A model generated the notes under the pieces. The model worked only from the letters and a program-made list of their open reading frames with translations. It made no database searches and had not been told where the DNA came from. This document shows, in pieces, positions 19,385-20,837 of a DNA stretch of 50,459 nucleotides. Within the stretch, counting starts at the first letter, position 1. The number at the start of each line of letters is the position of its first letter. The position numbers were made by a program, and so were the translations under genes. This DNA is from Desulfobacula sp. (GTDB taxonomy: Bacteria > Desulfobacterota > Desulfobacteria > Desulfobacterales > Desulfobacteraceae). The stretch is from the NCBI GenBank assembly GCA_013792075.1, contig VMSR01000084.1, positions 1-50,459 of the forward strand, read 5' to 3'.

Positions 19385-19411
19385 GCTGGAATTTCCAGCT
19401 GAATTTTTTTT
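19385..19411 (+). terminator. Rho-independent terminator after apbE
   Basis: The stem GCTGGAA/TTCCAGC (19385-19399, self-complementary with a minimal loop; realistically GCTGG-AATTT-CCAGC) is followed by TGAA and eight T. It lies 20 bases after the apbE stop. Confidence 0.7.
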
Positions 19412-19565: not shown

Positions 19566-19595
19566 TTGACAACATCACCTAAAGTCTTTTATAAT
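19566..19595 (+). promoter_or_regulatory. Consensus sigma70 promoter of the HMG-CoA-lyase-like gene
   Basis: Perfect hexamers: TTGACA (19566-19571), an 18-base spacer and TATAAT (19590-19595). The start would be at about 19602, which is the first base of a palindromic operator. The leader to the ATG at 19659 is about 57 bases. It is the best promoter match in the window. Confidence 0.75.
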
Positions 19596-19601
19596 TACTT
19601 G

Positions 19602-19619
19602 TGACTGAGCGCTCGCTCA
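19602..19619 (+). promoter_or_regulatory. TetR-type palindromic operator over the transcription start
   Basis: An 18-base imperfect palindrome, TGACTGAGCGCTCGCTCA, with a perfect central GAGCGCTC and perfect outer TGA/TCA; 14 of 18 positions are symmetric. The layout resembles TetR-family FadR-type sites (TGAATGA...TCATTCA in Bacillus). It sits directly after the -10 box, where a bound repressor would block initiation. No TetR gene lies in the window, so the regulator is unlinked here. Confidence 0.6.
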
Positions 19620-19658
19620 TAAAGATATGTTGAACCGTTGAAAGAAAAGGAAAAGAAA

Positions 19659-20837
19659 ATGACAGACGTCTATATTAGCAAAAATCAATTGGCAGGAAAA
19701 AAAGTGGAACTAAGTGATATCAGCATCAGAGACGGCCTGCAGTCGCTGGAGACCGTTATTGATACTGACACCAAGGTCAAATATCTGGAAGGCTTGATTC
19801 TGGCAGGATTCAAGCGCATGGAGGCCACCAACTACGGCCACCCCAAATTTGTACCCTTTTTTTTCGATGCAACGGAAGTATTAAAGCGCTTGCTGAACAG
19901 TGAAACCAAGGGACCGGACGGCAGAACCATTGGTCAAATGATGAAACGCAACGGCGGAGATGTTGAACTGACTGCGGTCTGCATCCATGAAAGTGGTGCT
20001 GAAAGGGTTTTTAAAGATGTTGATGCAGGCCTTGGGCCAGACCGTATCCTGCAAATGACCTCAACCTGCCCGGAACATCAGAAGGCCAACTCGGGAAAAA
20101 CCCATGACCAGTACTTTGCCATGACCGAACAGGTCATTAAAGCCGCACACAGCCGGGGATTGCTGGTAAACGGCACGGTCAGCACCATCTGGGGCAGCCC
20201 CTTTGAAAAATTCAATAAACAATACTCCATGAAAGAGAAACTGGATATTGCCATTAGCTTTGTCAAACGATATCTGGATTGCGGGGCCGACGACATAGAA
20301 CTTGCCGACCATGATGGATCGGTTACGGATTATCACAAATCCTATGAATTTTTCAGCCGCGTACTTGATCCCAAGGAGATGGGAAAAGGGCCCGATGGCC
20401 GGGACTATTCCGATCCCAAGCTTTACATCGCCCACTTTCACACCAAAAACATGGCATCGGCCCTTAGAAATGCTGCCGCCGCTCTTAAAGCCGGCATTAT
20501 CCGGTTTGAATCCTGCATGTCCGGCATAGGCGGCCAACCGGCCAACACAGTGGACGGTGTTGTCATTCAAGGCCGTGAAGGCGATTATTACAGCGATCAC
20601 TTTAACCATGGGCTCATTTCAACAGAGGACATGGTGACCATGTTCCATGAAATCGGAGTCGATACCGGTATCAATCAGGAAATGCTGATTGCCCTGGCAA
20701 AAAGCTTTAAGTCCGATGTGGTGGATATGTTTGCTGCCAACCAGAAAAAACTTGGCCGGGAGTTCATGAACTGCCGCTCTTTTATGCTGACAAAAGGAGC
20801 GCTGCCCGAAAGCGTTACCAAACTATACACCGAGTAG
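19659..20837 (+). CDS. HMG-CoA-lyase-like DRE-TIM metallolyase family protein
   Basis: A 392-residue TIM-barrel enzyme of the HMGL-like family, which makes or breaks C-C bonds next to a CoA thioester or keto acid with a divalent metal. ISIRDGLQS supplies the first metal Asp and the RDGLQ motif of HMG-CoA lyases; IAHFHTKN supplies the HxH metal ligands. The loop that in HMG-CoA lyase reads GGCPYA here reads GIGGQPAN, so the catalytic cysteine is replaced by glutamine. The protein is also about 90 residues longer than typical HMG-CoA lyase. A different reaction is therefore possible. Start choice: ATG at 19659 follows AAAAGGAAAAG; a TTG at 19638 lies in the ribosome-site region and is rejected. 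It is monocistronic, with a strong regulated promoter and a terminator. Confidence 0.82.
   Translation: MTDVYISKNQLAGKKVELSDISIRDGLQSLETVIDTDTKVKYLEGLILAGFKRMEATNYGHPKFVPFFFDATEVLKRLLNSETKGPDGRTIGQMMKRNGGDVELTAVCIHESGAERVFKDVDAGLGPDRILQMTSTCPEHQKANSGKTHDQYFAMTEQVIKAAHSRGLLVNGTVSTIWGSPFEKFNKQYSMKEKLDIAISFVKRYLDCGADDIELADHDGSVTDYHKSYEFFSRVLDPKEMGKGPDGRDYSDPKLYIAHFHTKNMASALRNAAAALKAGIIRFESCMSGIGGQPANTVDGVVIQGREGDYYSDHFNHGLISTEDMVTMFHEIGVDTGINQEMLIALAKSFKSDVVDMFAANQKKLGREFMNCRSFMLTKGALPESVTKLYTE

Follow-up and report, generated by a model that had tools for sequence, protein, structure and literature searches.

BkaR (Rv2506 / MSMEG_4718) is the mycobacterial TetR-family repressor of the branched-chain keto-acid operon (PMC3920632). 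In Bacillus, FadR acts on several fad operons through operator boxes in their promoters and is released by acyl-CoA (PMC4525379), and AibR of Myxococcus xanthus is a TetR protein that binds isovaleryl-CoA (PMC6018408, PMC9131029). Branched-chain amino acid utilisation is controlled by LiuR and LiuQ, as described in PMC5343134. LiuR belongs to the MerR family whereas the regulator described below is a TetR protein, and identity with LiuR was rejected; LiuQ is of the TetR type like our regulator, but it was reported in the same source as unique to betaproteobacteria, while the host here belongs to the Desulfobacterales. For deltaproteobacteria, orthologues of only five of the regulators studied were given (PMC5343134). 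In the regulatory networks of Desulfobacteraceae published in 2025, TetR-family regulators are linked to p-cresol and to sulfate uptake, with a 16-bp palindrome as operator in the sulfate-uptake case; the terms isovaler-, isobutyr-, butyrate, leucine and mutase are absent from the main text of that paper (PMC11887813). Reconstructed regulons are still few in this large group of anaerobes, and among the open-licence PMC papers listed, no title or abstract opening names the TetR regulon described here.

The window, i.e. the whole stretch of 50,459 nucleotides that was analysed, is contig C72 of a Desulfobacula sp. genome (5.3 Mb, 308 contigs, 98.9% complete). It carries an HMG-CoA-lyase-like gene of 392 amino acids at 19659..20837 (+ strand, ATG at 19659), with no same-strand gene directly 3' of it among the long ORFs. 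The sequence-only reading had described a consensus TTGACA-18-TATAAT promoter upstream of this gene. The -35 box is located at 19566..19571 and the -10 box, after an 18-base spacer, at 19590..19595 (both on the + strand). This is the only 12/12 promoter-like site in the window (spacing 16–18, both strands), and 20 mononucleotide shuffles of the window gave none. The palindrome TGACTGAGCGCTCGCTCA, said in that reading to follow the promoter directly, lies at 19602..19619 (no strand assigned); it is adjacent, but six bases separate it from the -10 box, and it is imperfect with 7/9 pairs. It ends 39 bases 5' of the lyase-like ATG. Transcription starts about seven bases after a -10 box, and by this spacing rule the expected start would lie at the very beginning of the palindrome, in agreement with the reading that the palindrome covers +1. 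A putative ribosome-binding site, the purine-rich AAAGGAAAA at 19646..19654 (+), was recognized by eye 5' of the start codon. Because a terminator-like hairpin (19385..19399, +, consensus match only) is situated 3' of the upstream ApbE gene, the promoter would be insulated from read-through. From this arrangement we infer that the lyase-like gene is probably tightly repressed and inducible. Symmetry alone was not taken as evidence for an operator, since palindromes of this grade are common in the window (95 18-mers with ≥7/9 pairs versus a mean of 69 in shuffles). The sequence TGACTGAGCGCTCGCTCA itself occurs, at ≤3 mismatches, in one place in the window (expected 0.00).

The whole-genome scan at ≤3 mismatches that had been proposed located TGACTGAGCGCTCGCTCA in four places including C72:19602, and its reversed control in one. 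The symmetric pattern GANYGAGCGCTCRNTC found the same four at 0 mismatches and two further places at two mismatches, with nothing at one. Its reversed control gave five at ≤2 mismatches, so that only the four strict sites stand out. Besides the site upstream of the lyase-like gene (C72:19602), one is placed at C205:419, approximately 45 bases upstream of a 216-aa TetR gene (C205:481-1131) that is followed by genes for IcmF, a thiolase, a 3-hydroxybutyryl-CoA dehydrogenase and an M24-peptidase-like protein. Another, C205:22830, precedes an acyl-CoA-ligase-like gene and then Liv-type transporter genes, and the fourth, C241:8313, precedes genes for an acyl-CoA dehydrogenase, an enoyl-CoA-hydratase-like protein and a carboxyltransferase. 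The curated cut-offs were passed by the IcmF, thiolase and 3-hydroxybutyryl-CoA dehydrogenase of the TetR operon, and were missed by the ligase, hydratase, carboxyltransferase and binding protein of the site-bearing operons. At all four sites, TTGACA begins 35–44 bases 5' of the operator. The four sites are copies of one motif, three standing before predicted acyl-CoA catabolism genes and one before the TetR gene. The sequence-only reading had named the lack of any further site near a TetR gene or related operons as refuting; the outcome was the opposite. It is this recurrence, and not the symmetry, that carries weight, since such symmetry is common by itself.

The product of the TetR gene on C205 contains a TetR_N helix-turn-helix domain (54 bits, cut-off 24). 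TetR_N matches number 31 in the genome; none is on C72, consistent with the earlier statement that the window holds no regulator gene, and C205 is the only strict-site contig with such a match. A near-palindromic operator is common to the regulator's own promoter and the targets. The best named sequence match of the regulator is Bacillus FadR, but its score of 50.5 bits against the FadR equivalog model NF053878 is below the cut-off of 200. Identity with FadR was rejected; the proposed FadR/TetR-type likeness thus stands as a general likeness and a TetR site, and not for FadR proper. The operator of Bacillus FadR is TGAATGA..TCATTCA, 18 bases long. A structure model of an orthologue of the regulator, built from three sequences, gave TM values of 0.46–0.72 to numerous TetR-family members whose ligands differ (among the matches listed), and for this reason no ligand was assigned from the fold. 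Acyl-CoA sensors are found both as the nearest named sequence (Bacillus FadR) and among the nearest folds (AibR). In a relative (L017), a second TetR-like gene is located at L017:1588-2199, directly 5' of an acyl-CoA dehydrogenase gene; it scored 64 bits with the FadR model (cut-off 200).

The distribution of site and regulator was examined in 242 genomes of the order, in which TetR orthologues were called at E 1e-30 with at most 12 candidates scored per genome. The strict site was present in 130/242 genomes and the TetR orthologue in 148/242; the reversed control of the strict site gave zero among the matches listed. TetR-bearing genomes had the strict site in 123 of 148 cases versus 7 of the 94 genomes without TetR. 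Site and TetR occur together in 123 genomes, TetR without the site in 25, the site without TetR in 7, and 87 have neither (Fisher p 8e-34; neither the counts nor p are corrected for kinship). A proximity count of 30/31 was set aside because its TetR genes had been chosen for having a listed site. Among the matches listed, the top 30 TetR loci, that of the window's genome among them, have the strict site upstream of TetR in 26 and IcmF beside TetR in 25. The four loci lacking the strict site comprise L068 and L084, with a 16/18 variant behind TTGACA, L088 with a 15/18 match, and L069 with nothing; the variants at L068 and L084 show that the strict pattern undercounts. Their cores are changed (TGACTGAGCGGTCGTTCG and TTAATGAGCGATCGTTCA, respectively). 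At L055/L067 and L087 (two genomes), a thiolase gene and not IcmF comes after the TetR gene, and IcmF is therefore not an obligate neighbour.

The sites were also inspected for their position relative to promoters. There were 85 site/orientation rows, 63 of which have TTGAC within 60 bases upstream. After assigning each site to its nearest gene within 200 bases and dropping identical 78-mers, 59 oriented sites were retained, their orientation depending on this rule. Exact TTGACA was found 28–45 bases upstream in 56/59 oriented sites (shuffles: mean 0.3, max 3), a placement in which the operator could interfere with the promoter. With ≤1 mismatch allowed, TTGACA was found there in 59/59 (shuffles: mean 6.2, max 12). 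Across the order, the motif, the predicted TetR regulator and the TTGACA promoter thus form a recurring set. The two halves of the operator differ, and the same half faces the promoter in most of the 59 oriented sites: the promoter-proximal half has TGAC at position 4 in 52/59 and T at position 5 in 46/59, and the opposite half-site arrangement was seen in three. The search pattern is symmetric and therefore did not cause this asymmetry; shared ancestry is one possible explanation. On the combined observations, we consider it highly probable that the palindrome is the operator of the TetR-family repressor at C205:481-1131 and that the signal is an acyl-CoA.

Orthologues of the lyase-like gene were scanned at 17 loci, of which 15 include the gene start (L027 and L028 were left out). 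These loci are labelled as metagenome-assembled Desulfobacterales, Desulfobacteraceae, Desulfamplus or Desulfosudis, or only as Proteobacteria/Deltaproteobacteria. L092 and L095 look like repeats of L016 and L020, with the same operator and distance, and were counted once. Absence of the palindrome upstream of orthologues had been set beforehand as grounds for refuting the operator reading. The stand-alone orthologues (L015, L016, L018, L020, and L026) have kept it in 5/5 cases, at 17–18/18 positions and 63–172 bases upstream of the gene. Together with that of the window, the six stand-alone promoters match the consensus at 12/12 positions in four cases, 11 in one and 10 in L026, and the operator lies 6–7 bases 3' of the -10 box in all six. 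Two operators are present at L026:908-1070, where an acyl-CoA dehydrogenase gene and the lyase gene diverge, and each is oriented to a separate TTGACA promoter. The other ten orthologues are operon-borne, following the carboxyltransferase gene in nine and the hydratase gene in one (L029), and the best operator match within 300 bases upstream of these ten lyase genes reaches just 10–15/18 positions. At L017, L029, and L030, the TetR orthologue is divergent from ACAD-ECH-(CT)-HMGL genes, with IcmF behind TetR in two of them. As judged from gene order, the lyase gene in the window is outside the operon that holds it in most of the relatives found, and it has its own predicted promoter and operator.

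The lyase-like protein was rejected as a canonical HMG-CoA lyase by score (111.6 bits, below the NF004283 cut-off of 246). In canonical HMG-CoA lyase, the cysteine of the GxGGCP loop is catalytic. The cysteine is absent from this loop in the lyase-like protein: the alignment places Gln293 where the human enzyme has it, and this glutamine is invariant in 14 orthologues, as is Cys286 seven residues before it. The RDG motif and the H-x-H pair (AHFH) are present in the sequence. The top 14 fold matches of the protein model are HMG-CoA lyases with a TIM-barrel. Because the mean pLDDT of the model is 67 and the stretch 287–320 is below 50, no structural claim is made on the missing cysteine. The lyase-like gene occurs in 7/242 genomes at E 1e-100. 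A canonical lyase is also encoded in two of the seven genomes (G135 and G141) at E 1e-40, and at the same threshold none was detected in the other five (the window's genome, G206, G128, G217, and G230). The window's genome also has no match above the canonical HMG-CoA lyase cut-off. The organism may have no HMG-CoA lyase other than the lyase-like protein, or this protein may have a different function.

The genes behind the sites bear on the nature of the signal. The IcmF of the TetR operon scored 1870.7 bits against NF045497 (cut-off 1500) and 1473.8 bits to 4xc6; its assignment as methylmalonyl-CoA mutase was rejected because its score exceeds the IcmF cut-off and falls far short of the PRK09426 cut-off. 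Phe and Gln, which we take to be the isobutyryl-type residues of IcmF, are kept in the alignment as mapped by hand. The best match of the carboxyltransferase is methylcrotonyl-CoA carboxylase beta (430 bits). M. tuberculosis AccD1 and a single chain annotated as propionyl-CoA carboxylase beta come next with 426 bits each, and other propionyl-CoA carboxylases reach ≤188 bits. In two scanned relatives (L017 and L023), an acetoacetate-CoA ligase above its cut-off is encoded behind the lyase gene, which fits since an acetoacetate-releasing lyase would need one. The acyl-CoA dehydrogenase is nearest to short-chain/butyryl-type enzymes; it has glutamate at the short-chain position, which we presume to distinguish the short-chain from the isovaleryl type, and glycine at the isovaleryl position. 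In relatives, the site is also found before other acyl-CoA-ligase-like genes (fragments that end at locus ends and are below curated cut-offs). Together, the predicted targets fit short, partly branched acids. The short-chain-type dehydrogenase, the 3-hydroxybutyryl-CoA dehydrogenase and the other ligase-like targets speak against a purely isovalerate-responsive circuit and led us to name the signal more broadly as a short, probably branched acyl-CoA.

The same operator and TetR could instead serve a general fatty-acid regulon, the signal being an unbranched acyl-CoA of short or medium chain length. The character of the dehydrogenase, the 3-hydroxybutyryl-CoA dehydrogenase and thiolase of the TetR operon, and the ligase-like targets in relatives would all suit such a signal, but straight-chain beta-oxidation needs neither the IcmF that is beside TetR in 25/30 best loci nor a dehydrogenase operon with a methylcrotonyl-type carboxyltransferase, a lyase and, in two relatives, an acetoacetate-CoA ligase. 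We regard the straight-chain signal as a real but lesser possibility, and lean slightly towards a branched rather than a straight acyl-CoA.

In the reading that we favour, a TetR dimer bound on about +1 to +18 would prevent initiation by RNA polymerase at what is a very strong sigma-70 promoter, and TetR would be autoregulated via the site before its own gene. A short, probably branched acyl-CoA (isovaleryl-CoA, isobutyryl-CoA or a near relative) would bind and release TetR. The ligase (activation), the transporter (uptake), the IcmF mutase, dehydrogenase, carboxyltransferase, hydratase, lyase and thiolase would then be induced jointly. The likeness to AibR does not tell in which direction the signal works, because AibR represses when ligand-bound (PMC6018408, PMC9131029). 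TetR could by this precedent act in reverse here, repressing when acyl-CoA-bound, or could be an activator, with the product switching the gene off; but the AibR operon is biosynthetic while the genes here are for breakdown, for which release driven by the substrate would be the usual logic, and an activator would not be expected to bind at +1 where the promoter already has the full consensus, so that we judge a reversed TetR improbable. A chance inverted repeat, or a hairpin at the 5' end of the transcript that involves no regulator, is extremely unlikely: imperfect 18-base palindromes are indeed common, but here the sequence, and not mere symmetry, is kept across the order beside TetR and promoters, and the site is kept between divergent genes too.

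The predicted repressor that releases its targets on binding an acyl-CoA looks like an ordinary kind of repressor circuit, in an example that carried no label. It is compact, with four sites in the genome, and provides a predicted regulator, operator and targets for the oxidation of short-chain and branched acids in a large group of anaerobes. It also places IcmF and the cysteine-less HMG-CoA-lyase-like enzyme in one pathway context. Its main interest is that it links IcmF, throughout the order, to a carboxylating route for branched acids. We put forward only tentatively, and with some doubt, that an order-wide TetR regulon of the Desulfobacterales connects IcmF with a leucine/isovalerate-type carboxylating route, such that one switch would govern how isobutyrate, isovalerate and possibly pivalate are degraded, and that in a few lineages the lyase step would be filled by the divergent HMG-CoA lyase without the loop cysteine.

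Among the described systems, AibR offers a precedent for the proposed isovaleryl-CoA-type signal and is a fold match of our regulator; however, AibR controls isovaleryl-CoA biosynthesis and acts as repressor in the ligand-bound form, whereas the targets here are for breakdown (PMC6018408, PMC9131029). Control of several operons through operators in their promoters with release by acyl-CoA, as we propose here, is shared with Bacillus FadR, but FadR senses C14–C20 acyl-CoA while our targets are short-chain and carboxylating (PMC4525379). BkaR, a fold match of our TetR at rank 7, is likewise described as autoregulated and as binding a palindrome as a dimer, and its gene diverges from an operon that encodes carboxylase, acyl-CoA dehydrogenase, hydratase and lyase-type proteins, a set similar to the one found here (PMC3920632). 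M. tuberculosis AccD1 is in addition a top match of our carboxyltransferase. The BkaR operator GTTA(N)T(N4)A(N)TAAC (PMC3920632) is unlike TGACTGAGCGCTCGTTCA by eye, and membership of our regulator in the BkaR group was rejected on the operator. IcmF is beside TetR here, but was not found among the BkaR genes described in PMC3920632. The system nearest in logic to the circuit is BkaR, and the nearest named sequence is Bacillus FadR.
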